Positions 8,443-51,691 of a stretch of DNA of 64,000 bases are shown here, piece after piece. Position 1 is the stretch's first letter, and every line of letters begins with the position of its first letter. Both the position numbers and the translations under genes were made by a program. The notes below the pieces were generated by a model, which saw only the letters and a list, made by a program, of their open reading frames with translations, was not told the origin of the DNA and searched no databases. The stretch comes from Pseudoxanthomonas winnipegensis (GTDB taxonomy: Bacteria; Pseudomonadota; Gammaproteobacteria; Xanthomonadales; Xanthomonadaceae): assembly GCF_004283755.1 (NCBI RefSeq), contig NZ_SHMH01000002.1, positions 496,001 to 560,000 on the forward strand, in the 5' to 3' direction.

Positions 8443-9069
8443 ATGGCCAAGCTCTACTTCTATTACTCGGCAATGAACGCCGGCAAGACCACCACGCTGC
8501 TGCAGTCGGCGCACAACTACCGCGAGCGCGGGATGCGGGTGCTGATCCTGACGCCGCGGCTGGACGATCGCGCCGGCACGGGCGTGGTGGCCTCGCGCAT
8601 CGGCCTGCGCGCGGAGGGCAGGGCGTTCACGGCCGAGGACGACCTGCTGGCCGTGGTCGATGCCGACATCGCCGCGCACGGCGCGCTGCACTGCGTGCTG
8701 GTGGACGAGGCGCAGTTCCTCAGCCGCGCGCAGGTGTGGCAGCTGAGCGAGGTGGTCGATCAGCGCCGCATCCCGGTGCTGTGCTACGGCCTGCGCACGG
8801 ATTTCCGCGGTGAGCTGTTCGAAGGCAGCCAGGCGCTGCTGGCCTGGGCCGACGAGCTCAGCGAGATCAAGACCATCTGCCACACCGGCGCCAAGGCCAC
8901 CATGACCGTGCGCGTGGACGATCAGGGGCGCGTGGTCCAGGACGGGCCGCAGGTGGAGATCGGCGGCAACGAGTCCTACGTCTCGGTCAGCCGCGCCGAA
9001 TACAAGCGGATCACCCGCGGCGAGTCGTCCATGCAGCCGCTGCAGGCGCCGCTGCCGCTACCCGAGTAA
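8443..9069 (+). CDS. tdk: Thymidine kinase
   Basis: A 208-residue type II thymidine kinase that phosphorylates thymidine to dTMP in the salvage pathway. It has [15 protein letters not shown] (P-loop), VLVDEAQF (Walker B with the catalytic Glu) and [14 protein letters not shown] (substrate lasso region). The C-terminal zinc-binding area is altered: where E. coli-type enzymes carry CxxC and a later Cys, this one has CHTGAK and VSVSRAEY, so at least two structural zinc ligands are missing. This is probably a lineage trait. ATG 8443 was chosen because the family N-terminus ([12 protein letters not shown]) begins there. Confidence 0.95.
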
Positions 9070-9085
9070 GCCGCCGGGACAGGCC

Positions 9086-11893
9086 CTAGCGGTTGCCTGC
9101 CAGCAGGCGCGCGTTGCAGGCCCGGGCGATGTCGTCGATCTCGCGGACCAGCGTGCCGCCTTCGGGCTGGGCGTCGTGCAGTTCGTCCTGCAGGGCCTTC
9201 AGCTCGGCGGCCGAGGACGGCGCGGCGCCGTCGCAGCGCGATTCGGCCAGGTAGGCGCGGGCGCGCCAGACCAGGCGCTGGGTCTCGCTGGTGTCGATGG
9301 GCAGCCGGGTCATGGCCGCCAGCGCCGCCTGCGCCGGCGCGGTCTGGCCCAGCCGCGCCCGGTTGCGGGCCTGGGCCAGCACGGCGCTGCGCTGGCGCAG
9401 CGGCATCGCGGTCTTGGCCGCGGTCAGCCGCACAGCGCTGTCGAACCACGGCGCGGCCTGGTCCGGCGTGCCGGCGTCGGCCAGTGCCTGGCCGATCATG
9501 CGGTCGGCCTCGCCGACGATCTCGGACTGCGCGCCATAGCGCTCGACGCGCAGCTGGCGGCAGGCCTGGAACGCGCCCAGCGCCTGCTCGGGGTGGCCGG
9601 CGGCCAGCTGCGCCAGGCCGATGTTGAAGAGCCCGCCATGCAGCAGCCCCTCGTTGCCCGGCGCGCGCCAGATGGCTACCGCCTGTTCGATATTGGTCAG
9701 CGCCTGGGCGCTGTCGCCGCGCTCCATGGCGATGATGCCCAGGCTGTTCCAGGCCAGGCCGGTGTTGCGATGCTGTGGGCCCAGCCGCCGCTGCACGTTG
9801 GCCAGCAGGGTGCGCGCCTGGCGCTCGGCCTGGGCGTAGCGTCCGCGGTCCACGTCCAGCGCCATCAGATAGGCGCGCAGGTTGCCCACGGTCGGGTGCT
9901 GCGGGCTGTAGAACGCCTCGGCCAGGGTCAGCGCGCGGTTGAAGCTGGCCTGCGCCGCGTCGGTCTCGCCACGCAGCCGCTGGGCCGCGCCGAAGCCGCG
10001 CAGCACGTCGATCTCCAGCGCTGTGTCGCTTTGGCCGTGCAGCTGGGCCAGCGCCTGGCGGTACAGCTCGAAGGCCGCCGGCTCGTCGCCGCGGTCGGTC
10101 GCCGTCTGCGCCAGATCGAGCAGGCTCTGGGCCTGGTTGGTCGGCAGCCCGGCCAGCCGCTGGCGCGCCAGCACCTGCTCGAACAGCGTCCGGGCCTCAT
10201 CGCGTCGGCCGATCTGGCGCAGGCAGCGCGCGTACTGGGACAGGAACTCGTTGGCGACGCCCTGTTCGGGGCCCCGGCGCGACTGGGCCAGCGGTTCCAG
10301 CGGGCCCAGCACCGCCACGCACTCGGCGCCGCGGTCCAGCTGGGCCAGGGCGCGGCCGCGCTGGGTGGCCAGCTGCAGGCGCAGCTGCGCGGGCGGGTCG
10401 GGCGTGGCGTCCAGCAGCGCCTGGCCGCGCCTGAGCAGGGCCAGGGCCTGTTCGTAGTCGCCCAGGCCCAGGCGCAGGCGGCCGACCACGGCCAGCAGCT
10501 CGGCATGCGCCAGCGGCTGGCCGGCCAGCTCGCGCTCGCCGCGCGCCACGCCGTCCTCCAGCAGCTTGCGCGTGTCCAGCGCATCGCCGCGCGGGGCCGC
10601 GCCGGTGTTGTCGAACAGGCCGATCACGAAGTTCTGCATCGCCTGCGCGCGCTGCGCCTCGCGCATGGCCTCGCGCGCCTGGCGCAGGCTGACCGCCGCC
10701 GCGCCGACCAGCACGAAGATCGTCAGCGAGGCGGCCAGCAGCCACCAGCGCTGGCGCGTGGCGTACTTGCCCAGGCGGTAGGCCAGGCTCTGCCGCTGCG
10801 CCTGCACCGGCAGGCCTTCCATGTGCCGCCCCAGGTCGGCCGACAGCGCCTCGACCGACGGATAGCGATCCTCCGGGCGCTTGGCCAGCGCCTTGAGCAC
10901 GATGCGGTCCAGATCGCCGCGCAGGCGCCGCGCCTGGCGGTGCGCGTCCAGGCCGACCTCGCCGGTCTCGCTGGCGCTCAGCACCATCTGCGAGGGGCGC
11001 TGCGGGTCCACCGCGATGATGGCCTGCTCCCACTGCAGCGGGTTCTCGCCGCGCAGCCGATAGGGCTTGTGGCCGGTCAGCATCTCGTACAGCACCACGC
11101 CCAGCGCGTAGACGTCGGTGCGGGTGGTGACCGGCTCGCCGCGGACCTGCTCGGGCGCGGCGTAGTGCAGGGTGAAGGCGCGCAGCTCGGTCCTGGCGAC
11201 CGCGCCGTCGGGCGTGTCGAGCAGCTTGGCGATGCCGAAGTCCAGCAGCCGGGTCTGGCCGTGGACGGTGACCATGATGTTGGAGGGCTTCAGGTCGCGG
11301 TGCACGATCAGGTTGGCGTGCGCGTGGCTCACCGCCTGGCAGACCTGGCGGAACAGCGCCAGCCGCGCCTCCAGCGCCAGCCCGTGCTGGCGGCAGTAGT
11401 CGGTGATGGGCAGGCCTTCGACGTATTCCAGCGCCAGGTAGGGCTGGCCCTGGTCGCCGACGCCGGCGTCCAGCAGGCGGCCGATGTGCGGATGCTCCAG
11501 CCGCGCCAGGATGTCGCGTTCGCGCGAGAAGCGCAGGCGCAGGCGGTGGTCGGCGAAGCCCGGGCGCAGCAGCTTCAGCGCCACCCGCCGCTGGTAGCCG
11601 CCCTCGGCGCGCTTGGCGCGCCAGACCATGCCCATGCCGCCTTCGCCCAGCACGTGCTCGAGCACGTAGGGGCCGATGCGCGTGCCCGGGCGCAGGGTGG
11701 GCTGAGGTTCGTGCAGCGGCGGCGGGAAGTTGTCGTCGGCATCCTCTTCCAGCGCCAGCAGCGCGGCCAGCTCGTCGGCCAGCGCCGGGTCCAGCTGCCG
11801 GTGACGGGACAGCTCCTGCTCGCGCTGCGCCGGACTCATGTCCAGCAGCAGGTCCAGCAGGGGCGACAGGCGCTGCCAGCGCGCGGGATCCAT
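9086..11893 (-). CDS. Membrane Ser/Thr protein kinase with TPR-like C-terminal region
   Basis: 935 residues. The kinase domain covers about 75-345: glycine loop GEGGMG (83-88), catalytic Lys in VALKLL (107), HRDLKPSN (198-205), DFG (218-220) and APE (246-248). All residues needed for catalysis are present. A hydrophobic helix at about 383-403 (LLAASLTIFVLVGAAAVSL) is the single membrane span, putting the kinase in the cytoplasm. Residues about 420-900 are rich in Ala/Leu helical repeats of TPR type and would lie in the periplasm. The gene follows the ECF sigma gene after 18 bases on the same strand, the arrangement of sigma/kinase pairs such as EcfK-PknS of Xanthomonas citri. Confidence 0.92.
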   Translation of the reverse strand: MDPARWQRLSPLLDLLLDMSPAQREQELSRHRQLDPALADELAALLALEEDADDNFPPPLHEPQPTLRPGTRIGPYVLEHVLGEGGMGMVWRAKRAEGGYQRRVALKLLRPGFADHRLRLRFSRERDILARLEHPHIGRLLDAGVGDQGQPYLALEYVEGLPITDYCRQHGLALEARLALFRQVCQAVSHAHANLIVHRDLKPSNIMVTVHGQTRLLDFGIAKLLDTPDGAVARTELRAFTLHYAAPEQVRGEPVTTRTDVYALGVVLYEMLTGHKPYRLRGENPLQWEQAIIAVDPQRPSQMVLSASETGEVGLDAHRQARRLRGDLDRIVLKALAKRPEDRYPSVEALSADLGRHMEGLPVQAQRQSLAYRLGKYATRQRWWLLAASLTIFVLVGAAAVSLRQAREAMREAQRAQAMQNFVIGLFDNTGAAPRGDALDTRKLLEDGVARGERELAGQPLAHAELLAVVGRLRLGLGDYEQALALLRRGQALLDATPDPPAQLRLQLATQRGRALAQLDRGAECVAVLGPLEPLAQSRRGPEQGVANEFLSQYARCLRQIGRRDEARTLFEQVLARQRLAGLPTNQAQSLLDLAQTATDRGDEPAAFELYRQALAQLHGQSDTALEIDVLRGFGAAQRLRGETDAAQASFNRALTLAEAFYSPQHPTVGNLRAYLMALDVDRGRYAQAERQARTLLANVQRRLGPQHRNTGLAWNSLGIIAMERGDSAQALTNIEQAVAIWRAPGNEGLLHGGLFNIGLAQLAAGHPEQALGAFQACRQLRVERYGAQSEIVGEADRMIGQALADAGTPDQAAPWFDSAVRLTAAKTAMPLRQRSAVLAQARNRARLGQTAPAQAALAAMTRLPIDTSETQRLVWRARAYLAESRCDGAAPSSAAELKALQDELHDAQPEGGTLVREIDDIARACNARLLAGNR

Positions 11894-44179: not shown

Positions 44180-45187
44180 GTGGACCAGCAGACGCCCCAC
44201 TACTCCGTCACCATCTACATCGCCGCGCCGGGGACGCCGCTCGTGCGTTCTGGCGGCACCTCGGCCGCTGGCCACATGTACTACGCCATCTCCGATGGCA
44301 AGCAGGAGCGGAGCTACGGATTCGCGCCCAAAGAGCATGGCCGGTCGAGTGGCCCGGGCAAGGTGTATGACACCGACCTAAAGGATTACAAGGACCCCTA
44401 CTATTCCCGCACGATCGAGATCACGAAGGACCAGTACGACAAGCTGCGGGAGTTCGGCAATGATCCTGCCAAGTACAAGTTCGACATGGAGTACAGAGGC
44501 GCGCGCAACAGTTGCATCGACTTCACATGGGGTGCGCTGAATCACGCAGGCCTCCAGCGTCAGACGTTCTTCGGCATCGGCGACAAGGGCTTCGAAGGCG
44601 ACCTCAAGCCGCTGCAGAACATCGACGACATCAAGACCATCAAGGCGCCGTTCCCCGACAGCCCGCTCAATGCGGAACATCAGAACAAGTTGCCCTCGCG
44701 CACCTTCCTGCAGTGGCTGATCACCGAGCAGGAGCAGGGCCGCGACGCCCGCGACATAACGGCTGGCCTGGCGACGGGGCAAGGCAAGGCGGGGCGCACT
44801 GGCCCTCCCGATCCGTTGCTTTCCCAGGCCGAAGAGGCAGTCCGGCGCCTGGAGAAAGGCCTGGGCCGCGACTACGACCAAAGCAGCGCATGCCTGGCGG
44901 CAAGCGCGGCCTGTTTGGCAAAGGAGCACGGGTTCTCCCGGATCGACCACGTGGCCCTCAGTCGGGATATCGGCACGGTCCGCCAGGGCGAGCACATCTT
45001 TGTCGTCCAGGGCGGGCTGAACGATCCCGCGCACCTTCGCGCGCACATGCGCACCGACGATGCGCTGGCCAAGCCGGTGGAGCAATCACTGGCGCAGCTG
45101 CAGACACTGAACGACCCGAAGCATCAACCGCCGGCACCTCAGGTCGTACAGCCGGAGAAGGTTGTTCAGCAACACCGCATGACCTGA
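44180..45187 (+). CDS. Putative antibacterial type IV secretion effector (C-terminal XVIPCD-like domain)
   Basis: 335 residues from GTG 44180 with TAGGAG nine bases upstream. Residues about 211-325 match the XVIPCD, the VirD4-interacting secretion signal of X-T4SS effectors: DPLLSQAEEAVRRLEKG, SSACLAASAACLAKEHGFSRIDHVALS, IFVVQGGLNDPAHLR and PVEQSLAQL. The tail is Gln-rich, as in that class. Residues 1-185 are the toxic part: AAGHMYYAI (His32) and NSCIDFTWGALNHAGL (Cys112) suggest a His/Cys pair as in permuted NlpC/P60-type peptidoglycan hydrolases, although the order and spacing need checking. No signal peptide. No VirB/VirD4 genes are in the window. Confidence 0.8.
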   Translation: MDQQTPHYSVTIYIAAPGTPLVRSGGTSAAGHMYYAISDGKQERSYGFAPKEHGRSSGPGKVYDTDLKDYKDPYYSRTIEITKDQYDKLREFGNDPAKYKFDMEYRGARNSCIDFTWGALNHAGLQRQTFFGIGDKGFEGDLKPLQNIDDIKTIKAPFPDSPLNAEHQNKLPSRTFLQWLITEQEQGRDARDITAGLATGQGKAGRTGPPDPLLSQAEEAVRRLEKGLGRDYDQSSACLAASAACLAKEHGFSRIDHVALSRDIGTVRQGEHIFVVQGGLNDPAHLRAHMRTDDALAKPVEQSLAQLQTLNDPKHQPPAPQVVQPEKVVQQHRMT

Positions 45188-45717
45188 GGCACCCGGCCTG
45201 GGATGGCCTGCCAAGGATCAGCTATCGGACGTGCGCGCCTGCAGCGACCAGATCCGCGCCTTCGCGCCCACAACCAATTACACCGTGCTGGACACCGACG
45301 GCGTCGGCCGCAGCCACACTCGCACCAACCTGCGCCGCTTCTTCGAGGTGGACCGCTACTGCATCGCGCACGCAGCCATCGCGAGGCTGCCGAAGGATGG
45401 CAAGATGACCGGCAAGGACGTGGCCCCGAGCGGTCAAACAGTACAAGATCGATGTGGACAAGGTGAATTTGGACGGGGCGAAATTTAGAGTAAAAAGGCA
45501 GCTCTACACCTGCCTTTATTTGCATAGCGCGCTATTGCGTATTGTTCAAGCCTGCCGCCAATACCAATTGAGCTTGCGTTGGCTTAATTCGGAAACTTAC
45601 TTGTTCAGCTTAAAGGTTGGGAGCTCTGGGTTCATGTAAGCTCGAGGCGCCGGGCCTTAGCTGAGTGATGTGCCAGCTATTGCTTTTAAGAAAAATCATA
45701 CCTGAAGGGGTTTCGAG
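45188..45717. other. Junction: aceE remnant then A+T-rich spacer
   Basis: Contains the aceE pseudogene (45229-45480) and about 240 bases of lower GC (45481-45717) with an AAGGGG ribosome site at its end. Reading frames in the second part are short and without recognisable content. Confidence 0.65.
45229..45480 (+). pseudogene. aceE: Second, decayed copy of the 3' end of aceE
   Basis: Matches 36490-36740 over 252 bases with about 29 mismatches and one inserted base by hand count (near 88% identity). The translation DQIRAFAPTTNYTVLDTDG, NLRRFFEVDRYCIAHAAIA and KMTGKDV is plainly AceE until the inserted base at about 45427. There is no start and no stop equivalent (GGCGAAA where aceE has GGCGTGA). 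Same direction as aceE. It marks one edge of the accessory region whose other edge is the true aceE end. Confidence 0.92.
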
Positions 45718-46842
45718 ATGTTTAAGGCGATAGGCGTTGATTTTGATGGGCGAATTAATGCTTGGTGTGTGACCGCCCAATGCAGCTACGCTTGGTTCCT
45801 TGAGGCCGTAAGCGGCTCCGAAGCAAATTTTGAAATTCAACGCGCCGTGATCAAAGGGCGCAAAGCTTATGCCACATTGCGTGAAGATTTGCGAAAGGGA
45901 TGCGTTTTGCCGCCTATCGTTTTGGCCGAGGCCGGGGGGGGTATCAGTCCTCTGGAGGGTGAGAACGTCAAGTCGTTGGATTCGCTGTCCTCAGAGCTGA
46001 AAATGCTTAGGGGTGATGCCGTATATATAATTGACGGGCTTCAAAGAACAAATGCTATCCGTCAGACAATGGCCGAACTAGATGGAAGTGATAGAGAGCA
46101 ATTTCTATCACGCCAGTTACGCGTTGAGTGCTGGCTCGGAGCGAGCTTCGGGGCTATTGCCTATAGGATGTTGCTGCTTAACGCGGGGCAGCGGCCTATG
46201 TCAATGAAACACCAAATTGAAGTTCTTAGCTCGCGCCTTGGCCATGAACTTAGCAACATACCGGGCGTCGAGATATTTACTGTGGGTGACGCTCGTCGGC
46301 GGTTTAGACCTGGTCAGTTCCAGTTAGCCAAGCTCTCGATGGCTTTTCAGGCGTGGTTGCAGGGGCAGCCAAACGTAGATGTGCGCAACGTGGTCATGGA
46401 GGAGTTGCTCGCGGAAGGCGCCGTCGAAACACTCGGCAGTTCAGTGGGGTCGAATGGAAGTGGCCCTGGATTTAAGAAGATTTTCGAATGGGTTGTGGAG
46501 ATGGATAGAGCGCTTGGGGGCGATTATCTTCATTTCTTCGGCAACGAAACCGTGCTCCAAGGGTTCTGTGCTGCAGTTGGGAGTTCTGAGCGGCATCCGA
46601 AGATTGCGGATCGGGTTTGGCCGGCGCTTGAGTCATTACGCGAGGAGGCGCGAAGAACCTCTGCACAAGACGTCCTGGGCGTCGAGGTCTTTACATCTCT
46701 AAGGACTGGCTTCGACGTAAGCAAAATCAATGTTGGATCTGCGACGCGCGAACTGGTTTTCGGTGCATTTCAAGAACAATTTTTTTCCGGGGGCCTGCGT
46801 TCAATGGTGGAGTGCTGGGAGATTGCGGCTTCGAGGATTTAA
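45718..46842 (+). CDS. DGQHR/DndB-like protein of unknown function, first of a two-gene module
   Basis: 374 residues. It has IKGRKAYATLREDLRKGCVLPPIVLA followed by YIIDGLQRTNAI (residues 103-114). This matches the DGQHR-type motif of DndB-like and DUF262-like proteins of DNA phosphorothioation and defence systems. A further block LLLNAGQRPMS (152-162) resembles the N-x-G-x-x-x-x-S element of that group. The C-terminal 200 residues are helical. The gene is in A+T-richer DNA. A three-base gap leads to the next gene, so the two are one operon. Confidence 0.7.
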   Translation: MFKAIGVDFDGRINAWCVTAQCSYAWFLEAVSGSEANFEIQRAVIKGRKAYATLREDLRKGCVLPPIVLAEAGGGISPLEGENVKSLDSLSSELKMLRGDAVYIIDGLQRTNAIRQTMAELDGSDREQFLSRQLRVECWLGASFGAIAYRMLLLNAGQRPMSMKHQIEVLSSRLGHELSNIPGVEIFTVGDARRRFRPGQFQLAKLSMAFQAWLQGQPNVDVRNVVMEELLAEGAVETLGSSVGSNGSGPGFKKIFEWVVEMDRALGGDYLHFFGNETVLQGFCAAVGSSERHPKIADRVWPALESLREEARRTSAQDVLGVEVFTSLRTGFDVSKINVGSATRELVFGAFQEQFFSGGLRSMVECWEIAASRI

Positions 46843-46845
46843 TTT

Positions 46846-47913
46846 ATGCCTTTACCTAACCATGTTGCGCAGGCGCTCGGCTGTGATGTGGATATTGAGC
46901 GCGGAGAGTTCGAAGGTCTTCTTGAATCCCTGCCGGGTGAAGCTTTGCCGTGGCTTTTGCGCGATCAACAGGCTCGCGAGGAGTTCATCGGATGCTGTTT
47001 TGGTGATATCCAACTCGTCAGCTTGAAAATTTGCGATGTGGTAGAGGTCATTGATAGCTACGAGTATCGAAGGCTCGTCGAATTTTCTGGTGGGGTAAGA
47101 GAGCTCATTGCTTTTCCAGCCGTTCTCGATGAGACAAAAACACTTCCAACTGGGGCATCCACCTCCTTAGCGAAGGCATGGTTGTCCGCGGAGATGTTGC
47201 TCTCAAAGGATGGGCTTGAAATACCAATTGAATTTCTCGGCCAACTACTAATTATCGATACTCTCATAGAGAGTGAATTGCGATCGTCTGATCTCGTCGA
47301 GCTTTCGGTCGCGTTATCCGGCTATCGAGTTAAACTGGCTGCTTTGAGTGTTGCTGCTCCGGCGTGGTCAAAATTCACTCGTTTTGATGTGCAGCAGGGG
47401 GCACTTGCGACGCAGTCGACGTTGATGGCCGGTCGCCTGCTCACCGAAGTACTGTCTGAGGTAAGAGTTAGGTGGCGATTCGTATCGATATACAGAATTT
47501 TTGAAGCCGCATATCTTGTTAACGTAAAAGAGCGGCTGCTTGCGGACTTTATGAGTAGGCCAAATGAAGTACTAGCTGCCGCTCAGGAGGCGTTGGCATC
47601 AGAGTTAGCTAGCTTCCAAAAGGTTGTCGTGGAGGGGAGGCTCTCTGCGCACTTTGACTTGGTGCGTCAGGCGGTAGATGCTGATAAGGAAAATAAATTT
47701 CTCCACGCGATTAAAAGATCTCTCTATAGATCTAAACTTTCCGCTCATGAGAAAGGCGTTGCCTATTGCTACAAGGTGCGGTGTGCGATCGTGCACGCTG
47801 GTCAGCATGACGTTGTTTTTGATCGATTTGACGACGCCGAGGCCGGCGTTAATTTGCTTGTTCCGCTATTAGAGCCAGCGATTCTCGATCTTCTTGGGCT
47901 TAGGGCCGCCTGA
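46846..47913 (+). CDS. Protein with C-terminal HEPN-like Rx4H motif, second of the two-gene module
   Basis: 355 residues, mostly helical. Near the C-terminus KVRCAIVHAGQ (Arg312, His317) gives the Rx4H motif of HEPN ribonucleases, preceded by a helical segment with AHEKGVAYCY. The N-terminal 250 residues show no known domain; FGDIQLVSLKICDVVEVIDSYEY and WRFVSIYRIFEAAYLV are helices with aromatic residues. HEPN proteins in such gene pairs are often RNA-cutting effectors held in check or triggered by a partner. Low GC and codon use differ from the host genes. Confidence 0.6.
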   Translation: MPLPNHVAQALGCDVDIERGEFEGLLESLPGEALPWLLRDQQAREEFIGCCFGDIQLVSLKICDVVEVIDSYEYRRLVEFSGGVRELIAFPAVLDETKTLPTGASTSLAKAWLSAEMLLSKDGLEIPIEFLGQLLIIDTLIESELRSSDLVELSVALSGYRVKLAALSVAAPAWSKFTRFDVQQGALATQSTLMAGRLLTEVLSEVRVRWRFVSIYRIFEAAYLVNVKERLLADFMSRPNEVLAAAQEALASELASFQKVVVEGRLSAHFDLVRQAVDADKENKFLHAIKRSLYRSKLSAHEKGVAYCYKVRCAIVHAGQHDVVFDRFDDAEAGVNLLVPLLEPAILDLLGLRAA

Positions 47914-48190
47914 AGCTCAGCAAGCGGTCACGGCGGAAACATGGTTCGATGTCGGCGAAGAAGCAGGGCTGCCGATCATTGCCACGCTGCAGAAGGTGCT
48001 GGGGCGCGCCGGGCGGATCCAGGCGGGGTGGTCGAGGCATGGGCGATCCTTTGCATCCGAGGTGCCGTTAGCGTTTCACCCGTGCATGGTCAGTAGAATC
48101 GGGCGATGGCTGGGCTCCATTTAGGAAATGGTGCACTCTGCCCCCGGTTTCAATGCCGGCAAGCAACGGGAACGCACCCTCCTGCCGGCA
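47914..48190. other. GC-rich stretch between A+T-rich genes, no gene assigned
   Basis: About 277 bases; the first 150 are GC-rich like the host genome, unlike both neighbours. A frame there reads VTAETWFDVGEEAGLPIIATLQKVLGRAGRIQ, which may be a gene remnant. I cannot match it to a family. The rest holds only CGGGAACGCACCCTCC-like text before the methyltransferase stop. Confidence 0.4.
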
Positions 48191-49546
48191 TTAGCCAGGA
48201 TGGTGGCTTTCTGCTGCGATATTCTGGTCCCCATTTTGCGCTTGATTGGTTCGCGCAAAATCGATGTGAACCTGCTGCGGATTGGGGTTTTTTCTATTGC
48301 GCTGAGCGATAGGGCTGATGATTCCCCAATGCCGCGCAGCCTCGGCTGTACTAAGTCTCAGCAATGCCTCGTCGCCCATAGAAAGGGAGCGCTTCGGGCG
48401 CACAGCTTTCATGCCGAGCGCCTTGAGAACCGAAGTGGCAACCGCGCGAGCAAGCGGAGGGGGAACCGAATTGCCGATTTGGCGCGCACCATGCCACTTG
48501 GTCTCGTTGAAACGAAACCAATCTGGGAAGCCATGCAGGCGCGCCATCTCCCGAACGGTGATACACCGGTTCCACTTGTAATGGATCGGGCGCGGGCTAG
48601 TGAAAGCTCCCCTTGCGGAGTCCGTGCCGGCTCGGAGGGTATTACTTACGCCTGTTGGCGAGAGCTTGAGAAACCTAGAAACTGGCTCAACTTCGCCAGG
48701 AGTGGTCTCGCCGAATCGTTTCCTCGACAGCTCGGTGTGCTCGGATCGCATGCTTGAGGTGAGTAGGAGCGGATCCCACTCGCGGCGGTAGCCGAAATAC
48801 CAACCCCTATCATCAGCGCAACGGATTATCTGAGCGTAATCATTCAGCTTCGCCCACCGCCTGACGCGGACTTCGTCGGTGAACTTGAGTTCGTCGAAAC
48901 GCTCCGCATCTGGAAGGTCTTCTAATGCGCTCTTGCATGTAGGCCCGAAAGGAAGCTCGCCAGGCATCGTTCCCGGCTTCGCAGTGATGGGAGACGGATA
49001 CTCGGGGACTCTTAGGCCCTTTTTTGCTCCCAGCAAAAACAGCCTTTGCCGATCTTGTGGGACGCCATACATGCAGGCGTTGAGCACCTTCCAGTCATTA
49101 ACCACGTCGTAGCCCGCAGCATCGAATGTCTCGATAATCTCCTCGAGAAACTTTCGGTGCTTTCCGACGGTGAGGCCTTTTACATTTTCGAAAACGAAAT
49201 AGTTGGCGTCGAGCTCACTAACCAGGCGCACGAAATCCTTAACGAGCGAATTGCGTGGATCGTCGAGGGCGCGCTGCCCGATGAGCGAAAATCCCTGGCA
49301 AGGGGCTCCCCCAAAGACAACATCGATTTTCTTACCCTTCAAGTTGGCGGCCGCCCGAATTTGTTCACCCGTCAAGGCGGTGACCGAGCGGGGGATGACC
49401 GCGCAATTCGGGAAGTTGTACGCATGAACTGCTGCGTGCACAGGGTCGATTTCGACCGCTGCGACTACATCGAAGCCCGCTTGTTCGAAGCCAAGGCTTA
49501 GGCCGCCTGCTCCCGCGAAAAGATCGATCCCGATAGGTCTGCTCAT
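48191..49546 (-). CDS. DNA cytosine-5 methyltransferase (type II modification enzyme)
   Basis: 451 residues with the C5-methyltransferase motifs in order: IDLFAGAGGLSLGF (I, SAM binding), VFGGAPCQGFSLIGQR (IV, catalytic Cys), FVFENVKGL (VI), QDRQRLFLLG (VIII), a target-recognition region about 190-310, and GNSVPPPLARAV (X). The C-terminus after about residue 385 is an extra 65-residue tail rich in Arg, Asn and Gln. It is divergent from the vsr-endonuclease pair. The recognition sequence cannot be read from this. Confidence 0.95.
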   Translation of the reverse strand: MSRPIGIDLFAGAGGLSLGFEQAGFDVVAAVEIDPVHAAVHAYNFPNCAVIPRSVTALTGEQIRAAANLKGKKIDVVFGGAPCQGFSLIGQRALDDPRNSLVKDFVRLVSELDANYFVFENVKGLTVGKHRKFLEEIIETFDAAGYDVVNDWKVLNACMYGVPQDRQRLFLLGAKKGLRVPEYPSPITAKPGTMPGELPFGPTCKSALEDLPDAERFDELKFTDEVRVRRWAKLNDYAQIIRCADDRGWYFGYRREWDPLLLTSSMRSEHTELSRKRFGETTPGEVEPVSRFLKLSPTGVSNTLRAGTDSARGAFTSPRPIHYKWNRCITVREMARLHGFPDWFRFNETKWHGARQIGNSVPPPLARAVATSVLKALGMKAVRPKRSLSMGDEALLRLSTAEAARHWGIISPIAQRNRKNPNPQQVHIDFARTNQAQNGDQNIAAESHHPG

Positions 49547-49679
49547 GAGGGGAAGTATAGAGTGAAGTCTGGTCGTTGTCGATCGGAAGAGTCTGCAAAC
49601 CTTGTAGCCGAACGACTCGGTCGTGCTGCTATGCTGGCATGTGTCGATCTCAGAAGTTGCGACCGTGTGAGGCGTCTCG

Positions 49680-50132
49680 ATGGATAGACTGAGTCAAGAG
49701 CATCGCAGCTGGCTGATGGCTCGAATTCCTGCGAAGAACACCAAGCCGGAGCTCGCCGTCCGTTCGATGCTCCATCGGCTAGGCTACCGTTTTCGCCTTC
49801 ACAAGCGGGATCTTCCTGGGTCGCCTGATGTGGTCCTTGCCGGACGCGGTGCAGTGGTGTTCGTGCATGGATGCTTCTGGCACGGCCATGCTTGCAAGAG
49901 AGATAAGATGCCGAAATCGCGCACCGACTACTGGCTTCCGAAGATCGACGCGAACCGGGAGCGGGATTTGCGTAAGCGAAGGCAACTAGCTGCACTTGGG
50001 TGGAGAGTAGTGGTCGTATGGGAGTGCGAGCTAAAATATCCGGAACGACTGGCGCGCAAGCTCGAACGCCTGTTGGGCCGTGAAAAGTTAAAGGCCGGGC
50101 AATTGAAGAGGAATGTACGTGACCGCGAGTAA
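49680..50132 (+). CDS. vsr: Very short patch repair endonuclease Vsr
   Basis: 150 residues. Diagnostic text: RSWLMARIPAKNTKPELAVRSMLHRLGYRFRLHKRDLPGSPDVVL (PD-(D/E)XK-like core with catalytic Asp in SPDVVL) and VFVHGCFWHGHACKRDKMPKSRTDYWLPKI (zinc and aromatic wedge residues). It nicks DNA next to T:G mismatches that arise when 5-methylcytosine deaminates, offsetting the mutagenic effect of the neighbouring methyltransferase. Its last 20 bases overlap the next gene. Confidence 0.95.
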   Translation: MDRLSQEHRSWLMARIPAKNTKPELAVRSMLHRLGYRFRLHKRDLPGSPDVVLAGRGAVVFVHGCFWHGHACKRDKMPKSRTDYWLPKIDANRERDLRKRRQLAALGWRVVVVWECELKYPERLARKLERLLGREKLKAGQLKRNVRDRE

Positions 50133-50925
50133 GAAGCCTAATCGATATTCCGAGATAATTGGCGAGGTATTTCGCAATAACTACCGGGTCGGTGCGTGCA
50201 CGGTGGCTTTCGAGCGGGACGAGTTCGTGGCCGCAGCGGAGCGTCGCGGAGTGGTTCTCCCCAAGAATCTTGGGGATGCGATTTATTCCTTTAAGTATCG
50301 CAGCCCGCTCCCGGAAGCGATCGTAGAGACCGCGCCGGAAGGTTTCGAGTGGGGTATTTATGGCGCGGGGCGCGCGCGCTACGAGTTCCGATTGAAGCGA
50401 CCGCTTTCTATCGTCCCCAGGCAGAATCAGCTCATCGTTAAGATTCCGGACGCTACTCCTGAGATTATCTCCGCTAACGCACTTGGCGATGAGCAGGCGC
50501 TGCTGGCGAAGGTCAGATACAATCGATTGATCGACATATTTCTTGGCATCACTGTATCTTCGCTTCAAAATCACTTGAGAACGACCGTAAAATCAATCGG
50601 TCAAATCGAGATCGATGAGCTATATGTTGGGTTGGACAGAAATGGTGCCCAGTATGTAGTGCCCGTACAGGCGAAGGGCGGAAAAGATAAGCATGGCAGG
50701 CAACAAACGGAGCAAGATATCGAATGTTGCCGAGAGAAGTTTCCGTTTCTCATATGCCGCCCCGTATCCGCTCAATTTATTAGCTCGAACAAGATCGCCA
50801 TGTTCGAGCTCGCTGTTCAGGACGATGAGATAAAAGTGGTGTCTGAGGAGCATTATGAGCTTGTGCCGTCCGCAGAAATTTCCGTCGGCGACCTAGACAT
50901 CTACAAAAACAGAAGGCGAGTCTAA
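50113..50925 (+). CDS. Putative type II restriction endonuclease
   Basis: 270 residues. A possible PD-(D/E)XK core lies at EIDELYVGLDRNGAQYVVPVQAKGG (Asp168/Glu169, Gln186-Ala-Lys188), where a Gln replaces the usual Glu of the ExK motif. The N-terminus has IIGEVFRNNYRVGACTVAFERDEFV. Position next to vsr and opposite the cytosine methyltransferase, with a 20-base overlap, is the main evidence that it is the restriction partner. An alternative GTG start lies at 50119. A+T-rich like the other genes of this block. No close family is recognised. Confidence 0.75.
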   Translation: MYVTASKKPNRYSEIIGEVFRNNYRVGACTVAFERDEFVAAAERRGVVLPKNLGDAIYSFKYRSPLPEAIVETAPEGFEWGIYGAGRARYEFRLKRPLSIVPRQNQLIVKIPDATPEIISANALGDEQALLAKVRYNRLIDIFLGITVSSLQNHLRTTVKSIGQIEIDELYVGLDRNGAQYVVPVQAKGGKDKHGRQQTEQDIECCREKFPFLICRPVSAQFISSNKIAMFELAVQDDEIKVVSEEHYELVPSAEISVGDLDIYKNRRRV

Positions 50926-50968
50926 TAAATTGCGGTAGCTATGAGTCCTAAAGGGCTTGCCCTTAAGC

Positions 50969-51691
50969 CTACGCCGTTACATCGGTTCGGTTCGCTTCCT
51001 CTAGCAGCTGTTCGTAGCTCTGCACGCGGGTTCGCAGTCTGATGATGTGCCAGGACATCACGTAGGCGAGTAGCAGGAGGAAGGCGAGGCAGCCCTGGAT
51101 GAGGGTGACGTCGGCCAGGACGGTCCAGTCGCCCCAGTGCCAGCCTTTGAGCTGCAGGTAGAGGGCGAGGAGCAGTGGTAGGACGCCCAGCCGCTCCATC
51201 CCGCCGGTGAACAGGCCCAGGCGTTCGTGCATGTTCGATCCGCGGTTGCGGATGAAGGCTTCGCGCTGCAGGCGCTGCTCGCGGGGGAAGGCGCGTAGCG
51301 CCTGGACGATGTCTTGGTAGTGGTGGAATTCGTGCTCCATCTCCGCCGCATGCTGGGGGTAGGGATGGCGGAAGCTCGGCCACTCGCGTCTGATCTGCAG
51401 CACCAGCGTGACAAGAAGGCCGCCAATCTCCAGGGCGAGGCCCGTGGCGGCGAAAGCCAAGCCGGTCCGCCCTTCCAGGATCGAACCGAGCAGCATGCCG
51501 ACCCCGGCTCCGAGCAGTGCAACGACGAAGCTCCAGCGTTCAAGCCGGCCTGCGCGATTCGGGTCCGTGTCCTGGGTGTAGCGCGCCATCGCTTCGGCGA
51601 GCGAAGGAAAGGTCAAGTCCTTCACTAAAGCGGGCTGATGTTGCTTCGCGCTGACGGGCGTTTGCTGCGTGAGGTCCGGTGAGCCTTCCAT
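50969..51691 (-). CDS. Hypothetical membrane protein, about four helices
   Basis: 240 residues. Hydrophobic helices at about residues 52-70, 75-95, 165-185 and 195-215 (LLGAGVGMLLGSILEG, AATGLALEIGGLLVTLVLQI, LLLALYLQLKGW, GCLAFLLLLAYVMSW). A charged loop with HAAEMEHEFHHYQDIVQALRAFPREQRLQREAFIRNRG lies between the two pairs, and the tail is coiled-coil-like (RTRVQSYEQLLEEANR). No known domain. GC composition is host-like again, so the A+T-rich island ends just before it. Confidence 0.6.
   Translation of the reverse strand: MEGSPDLTQQTPVSAKQHQPALVKDLTFPSLAEAMARYTQDTDPNRAGRLERWSFVVALLGAGVGMLLGSILEGRTGLAFAATGLALEIGGLLVTLVLQIRREWPSFRHPYPQHAAEMEHEFHHYQDIVQALRAFPREQRLQREAFIRNRGSNMHERLGLFTGGMERLGVLPLLLALYLQLKGWHWGDWTVLADVTLIQGCLAFLLLLAYVMSWHIIRLRTRVQSYEQLLEEANRTDVTA

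Follow-up and report, generated by a model that had tools for sequence, protein, structure and literature searches.

Dazbog is a defence system that, according to PMC10952713, was named by Millman et al. 2022. In the excerpts of the literature drawn on here, it is reported to confer phage resistance, which is abolished when its DUF262 gene is mutated or deleted (PMC10952713); methylases are able to activate it by a mechanism described as unclear (PMC12409349), and a 2026 review places it among systems of unknown mechanism (PMC12926258). According to the same excerpts, the described partners of DUF262 are mostly DNA nucleases, and HEPN is given for PD-T4-2, PD-T4-5, PD-T7-3 and ApeA, not for Dazbog (PMC10952713), while a defence island of Stenotrophomonas maltophilia holds Dazbog together with a type II restriction-modification (R-M) system (PMC11680222). 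A 2013 HEPN survey, likewise excerpted, describes operons that join HEPN families to ParB-type genes (MAE_28990, Ribo L-PSP-HEPN), so that a HEPN/ParB-type pairing was already foreseen. Here, we describe two adjoining genes in a 64,000-nucleotide stretch of Pseudoxanthomonas winnipegensis (contig NZ_SHMH01000002.1, positions 496,001 to 560,000; hereafter the window), which sequence comparison places as a divergent branch of the already named Dazbog. The pair is probably an anti-phage system in which DzbA, as a nucleotide-binding sensor, and DzbB, as a HEPN RNase effector, would respond to phage methylation by cutting RNA.

Identity, pairing and phylogeny of the Dazbog genes

We identified both proteins with PADLOC. 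The product of gene 1 matched the DzbA model PDLC03835 over its full length (E 1.4e-89, residues 2-373 of 374), and that of gene 2 matched the DzbB model PDLC03836 over residues 197-350 of 355 only (E 5.9e-15). The genes are directly adjacent in the order dzbA then dzbB, as in Dazbog, and the invariant residues of canonical Dazbog are kept in both window proteins. The original prediction had proposed an unnamed new system, which is ruled out because the PADLOC models identify both genes as Dazbog; its two-gene layout with a spacing of 3 bases agrees with the coordinates (Table 1). NCBIfam held no match for either window protein, Pfam named neither at its cut-off, and scans for promoters and terminators gave no signal above shuffles.

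A scan of genome contigs, seeded on DzbA and thus with lone dzbB genes outside its reach, found 192 DzbA relatives. We analysed the 80 that were kept, 14 at 44-65% identity (13 from Proteobacteria and one from a metagenome-assembled genome labelled Dehalococcoidia) and 66 at 25-39%. Genomes that match the DzbA model are uncommon, at 7 of 395 in the family and 2 of 398 in the phylum, with the window's own genome counted in each. Three loci without a complete DzbA open reading frame (ORF) were left out (L029, L041, L045). Among the 77 that remained, an ORF longer than 180 amino acids (aa) lies directly downstream in 72, which bears out the co-location that had been set as a check on the original prediction. 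The five unpaired loci comprise three contig ends (L030, L056, L059), one without a partner ORF (L043) and a decayed one (L069), in which both dzbA and dzbB are broken and an RCLVFH remnant was read by eye. Also by eye, a transposase-like ORF follows dzbA in L073, and a DzbA from the family search (L015) carries an apparently unrelated C-terminal extension and has no partner. The alignments used below comprise 72 DzbB rows (without L073) and 76 DzbA rows (without the short DzbA of L059 and L069).

The two genes are inherited together: DzbA and DzbB distances correlate across 72 pairs (Mantel r 0.91), with 0 of 2000 permutations as high. In a tree of 82 DzbA proteins, flagged for long branches and unlike residue make-up in 11 rows (window included), the window clade comprises 14 rows with support of 93/88, rising to 100/100 without unlabelled rows; it is separate from a canonical clade of 52 rows (98/95) and from a clade of 15 rows with DzbB of about 290-310 aa (100/100). 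In a further family genome (L016, 7845-10447), DzbA is followed by a partner ORF and sits on a very long branch, so that its place in the tree is unsure.

Outside the window clade, DzbB shares 10-17% identity with window DzbB. The N-terminal half of window-branch DzbB is fast-changing and branch-specific and could not be aligned to canonical DzbB (45-row canonical alignment, without L049). The PADLOC DzbB model found no match in 14 of the 72 DzbB, and these are probably mostly members of the short-partner clade. Partners of 286-309 aa with RNRYFH-like motifs were seen in this clade in L054, L057, L063, L064, L065, L070, L075, L077, L082, L083, L087, L093 and L095. Profile comparison with this clade gave weak results, and it is the invariants it shares that carry its HEPN assignment.

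We additionally looked for relatives in mobile elements. Viral contigs, searched with the two window proteins in turn, yielded no relative, and 50,697 phage records yielded no DzbA match. Plasmid records contained DzbA in 10 of 72,556, all below 33% identity, and no DzbB match.

Predicted functions of DzbA and DzbB

The original prediction had assigned the first protein to the DGQHR/DndB/DUF262 group from the motifs YIIDGLQRTNAI (Asp106) and LLLNAGQRPMS; both motifs are present in the translation, and a DUF262/ParB-type protein is supported. DzbA combines a predicted ParB/Srx-type fold with a DGxQR motif (D106 G107 x Q109 R110; further motif residues are Y149 R150 M151 and N155 x G157 Q158), and BrxU, SspE and DndI, in which this kind of fold reads modified DNA, are among its nearest solved folds. 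Pfam GmrSD_N scored 15.8 bits on window DzbA, below the 33.2 cut-off, and was found at E <= 0.1 in 69 of 76 DzbA (best E 4.9e-8). DzbA is predicted to be a nucleotide-binding sensor of the ParB/Srx type (DUF262/GmrS-like). Searches of PDB sequences with DzbA and DzbB profiles returned no row below E 0.05.

The nearest solved folds, together with the reported activation by methylases (PMC12409349, in excerpt) and weak matches of single DzbA relatives to PADLOC restriction-enzyme models (E 0.002 and 0.005), might instead indicate a variant type IV restriction system in which modified phage DNA is cut and DzbB serves not as an RNase but as an atypical DNA nuclease or an accessory DNA-binding protein. 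We consider this decidedly unlikely, as neither DUF1524 HNH nor any other DNase domain was found in the window proteins or among the 25 families listed per relative set, and the DzbB invariants are residues of the HEPN RNase site. The pair accordingly differs from the type IV enzymes BrxU and GmrSD in having a separate HEPN-like partner and no detected DUF1524 HNH nuclease, and from the phosphorothioate-sensing SspE and DndI in that no fused nuclease was found in DzbA and the reported Dazbog activator is a methylase. PD-T4-2 resembles it in that DUF262 and HEPN are both listed for one system (PMC10952713, in excerpt); the window proteins had no PADLOC match to PD-T4-2 at E <= 1, the presence of that model in the library being unverified.

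For DzbB, we predict that the C-terminal helical HEPN-like domain is a metal-independent RNase effector. Y216, E220, R312 and H317 are invariant in 72 of 72 aligned proteins, R312 and H317 thereby forming the HEPN Rx4-6H motif in every one. In a structural model of residues 201-350 (block predicted local distance difference test scores of 86-97), DSSP places H317 directly after helix 300-316 and E220 inside helix 208-234, which corresponds to the HEPN arrangement of the motif at the end of helix 3 and an acidic residue in helix 2. The usual Ex3[KR] form is absent from DzbB. A polar residue (N, D or H) after the motif arginine is typical, not defining, of HEPN (PMC3710099); window DzbB has Cys313 in its place, and the family has N in 45, C in 25, S in 1 and H in 1 of 72.

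The RCAIVH motif on which the original prediction relied is real (residues 312-317), but it is not terminal, as 38 residues separate it from the C-terminus. Shuffling window DzbB alone produced such an Rx4H motif in 7.7% of 5000 trials, so the single motif is weak evidence; the strong evidence, as read from the aligned family, is its conservation. Of the 72 ORFs downstream of dzbA in relatives, 71 carry an Rx4H at 75-95% of their length, compared with 54 of 375 further ORFs nearby (250-450 aa), 3 of 77 DzbA and 6% of shuffled DzbB, which speaks against chance.

Window DzbB had no Pfam HEPN profile above the curated cut-off, and HEPN_Apea was found at E <= 0.1 in 4 of 72 DzbB. A follow-up, to which 45 of 71 DzbB-bearing relatives were submitted (canonical clade only; 44 host genomes searched), placed HEPN_Apea over the curated cut-off in L085 and just under it in L089. 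An Apea-HEPN comparison set within the phylum came from 1 of 150 genomes, too few for a profile. On the fold check set for the original prediction, the predicted structure fits HEPN topology but matches solved HEPN folds only weakly. The second protein is probably of HEPN type, as had been proposed.

Among solved folds, DzbB matches best the HEPN toxin 7ae6, which we take to be HepT, and it shares the HEPN-like C-terminal domain with this toxin and with Apea-like HEPN proteins (the L085 match). The partner of HepT is a nucleotidyltransferase, whereas that of DzbB is of ParB/Srx type. Such a match, along with the close spacing of the genes (54 of 72 pairs are set apart by -1 to 11 bases), would also fit a toxin-antitoxin pair, in which DzbA as antitoxin holds DzbB, and the toxin is freed by loss or inhibition of DzbA and not by sensing of modified DNA. 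This seems unlikely, in that a pure antitoxin is not predicted to abolish resistance when lost, as the excerpted review reports for the DUF262 gene (PMC10952713).

MtlR, proposed to be non-catalytic and either structural or RNA-binding (PMC3710099), is also among the best fold matches, and the cysteine after the motif arginine might likewise point to DzbB being a helical protein of that sort. The invariance of E, R and H across proteins as divergent as those outside the window clade argues against this, and we regard it as very unlikely.

In the most likely arrangement, DzbA would be an NTPase that senses modification and licenses DzbB, a HEPN RNase. Upon infection, DzbA, which has no recognisable nuclease domain, would sense either the methylation of phage DNA or the methylase, as reported for another Dazbog, and would bind or hydrolyse nucleoside triphosphate. 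It may then release or align the HEPN domain of DzbB, probably as a dimer, the N-terminal half of DzbB probably docking on DzbA or on the trigger. The HEPN domain, with E220, R312 and H317 as its putative active site, would cut RNA and stop phage growth, likely via arrest of the cell.

Genomic setting of the pair

Within a variable block (Table 1), the pair lies beside an R-M cluster, as the original prediction had noted, and its defence setting is supported. The block is A+T-richer than the host, with G+C of 0.50-0.59 in 1-kb bins across 45-51 kb and 0.63-0.76 in all remaining window bins.

Table 1. Positions of the Dazbog genes, the predicted active site and neighbouring features in the window
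Feature	Positions	Strand	Basis
dzbA homologue	45718-46842	+	ORF, 374 aa, TAA ending at 46842
dzbB homologue	46846-47913	+	ORF, 355 aa, ATG starting at 46846
Predicted DzbB active site, codons Y216 to H317 (Y216, E220, R312, H317)	47491-47796	+	72-protein alignment, DSSP of model
C5-cytosine DNA methyltransferase, neighbour outside pair	48191-49546	-	Pfam DNA_methylase E 2.7e-68; PADLOC MTase_II E 1.9e-172
Vsr mismatch endonuclease, neighbour outside pair	49680-50132	+	Pfam Vsr E 2.9e-28; NCBIfam TIGR00632 E 4.5e-46
Type II restriction endonuclease, neighbour outside pair	50113-50925	+	PADLOC REase_II E 7.3e-116
A+T-richer variable block holding Dazbog and R-M cluster	45190-50988	.	blastn vs L118, L119, L120

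By blastn, similarity to the window stops at 45162 in L118, 45190 in L119 and 43135 in L120, and resumes at 50988 in all three. Two of these, same-genus genomes with collinear flanks, carry shorter and different DNA in place of the block: about 2 kb replaces 45162-50988 in L118, including a 243-aa ORF without a Pfam or PADLOC match, and about 2.6 kb replaces 43135-50988 in L120, including, in a stretch of 0.49 G+C, the gene (8989-11109) of a 706-aa AAA-type P-loop protein that weakly matches the PADLOC candidate PDC-M36A (E 1.6e-8). In L119 the order of the flank genes differs and an IS200-like transposase separates them, so this genome is uninformative on the empty site. The site looks like an exchange point for defence and mobile genes.

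Just before the block, at 44180-45187, lies a Type IV secretion effector with an X-Tfes XVIPCD tail (Pfam E 2.2e-25), which has 7 matches in its own genome, itself included. After dzbB, 109-155 bases of 47946-48150 align at 75-81% to different locations in two sibling stretches, perhaps as the remnant of an older gene. A protein at the right junction (50969-51691) resembles SLATT_3 very weakly (E 0.6) and has matches, many of them weak, in 22 of 38 genus genomes.

Because the pair and the R-M cluster share one A+T-rich block, the pair might alternatively guard the cluster, monitoring the adjoining C5 methyltransferase and halting the cell if a phage blocks this enzyme. C5 methyltransferases were found at 5 further loci within the fetched stretch, among them L061, where 51 bases separate the end of the gene (8537-9922, Pfam E 1.3e-54) from dzbA at 9974. 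With one phmmer query, however, they occurred in only 6 of 85 stretches, window included, and in none of the other window-clade stretches, although several of these are short and the ORF filter applied to the set dropped some real genes. We consider a guard function extremely unlikely. Vsr was found by phmmer in 4 stretches besides the window, and no relative of the window restriction enzyme in the 85; all these counts are lower bounds, because the filter removed even the Vsr and restriction enzyme of the window itself.

Elsewhere, a C5 methyltransferase and Vsr stand near an other-clade DzbA, as in the window, in L014 (5471-7481) and L074 (17654-19738). Among 119 ORFs neighbouring the close loci, PADLOC matched 33 families at E <= 1e-10. 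The 25 families listed, 24 of them represented by one ORF each, are type I, II and IIG methyltransferases, an orphan methyltransferase, DrmMI and mads. Enrichment of defence islands around the close loci is no more than suggested, because few genes are involved.

Implications for Dazbog defence

More tentatively, Dazbog may represent a class of modification-dependent defence that has gone unrecognised: its GmrS/BrxU-type sensor, which would read phage DNA modification or the modifying enzyme, would be wired to an RNA-cutting HEPN protein and not to a DNA nuclease, and in the window branch the sensor would tolerate the adjoining C5 methyltransferase. A sensor tolerant of a resident methyltransferase would have to tell self from phage methylation. 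This raises the question of how a methylation-triggered system coexists with an adjoining host methyltransferase, and in L061 it is odd to see such a system directly behind one. If true, this reading would give the DUF262 sensors an arm that cuts RNA, and the proposed DzbB catalytic site, invariant over 72 diverse proteins, makes the mechanism of Dazbog directly addressable.
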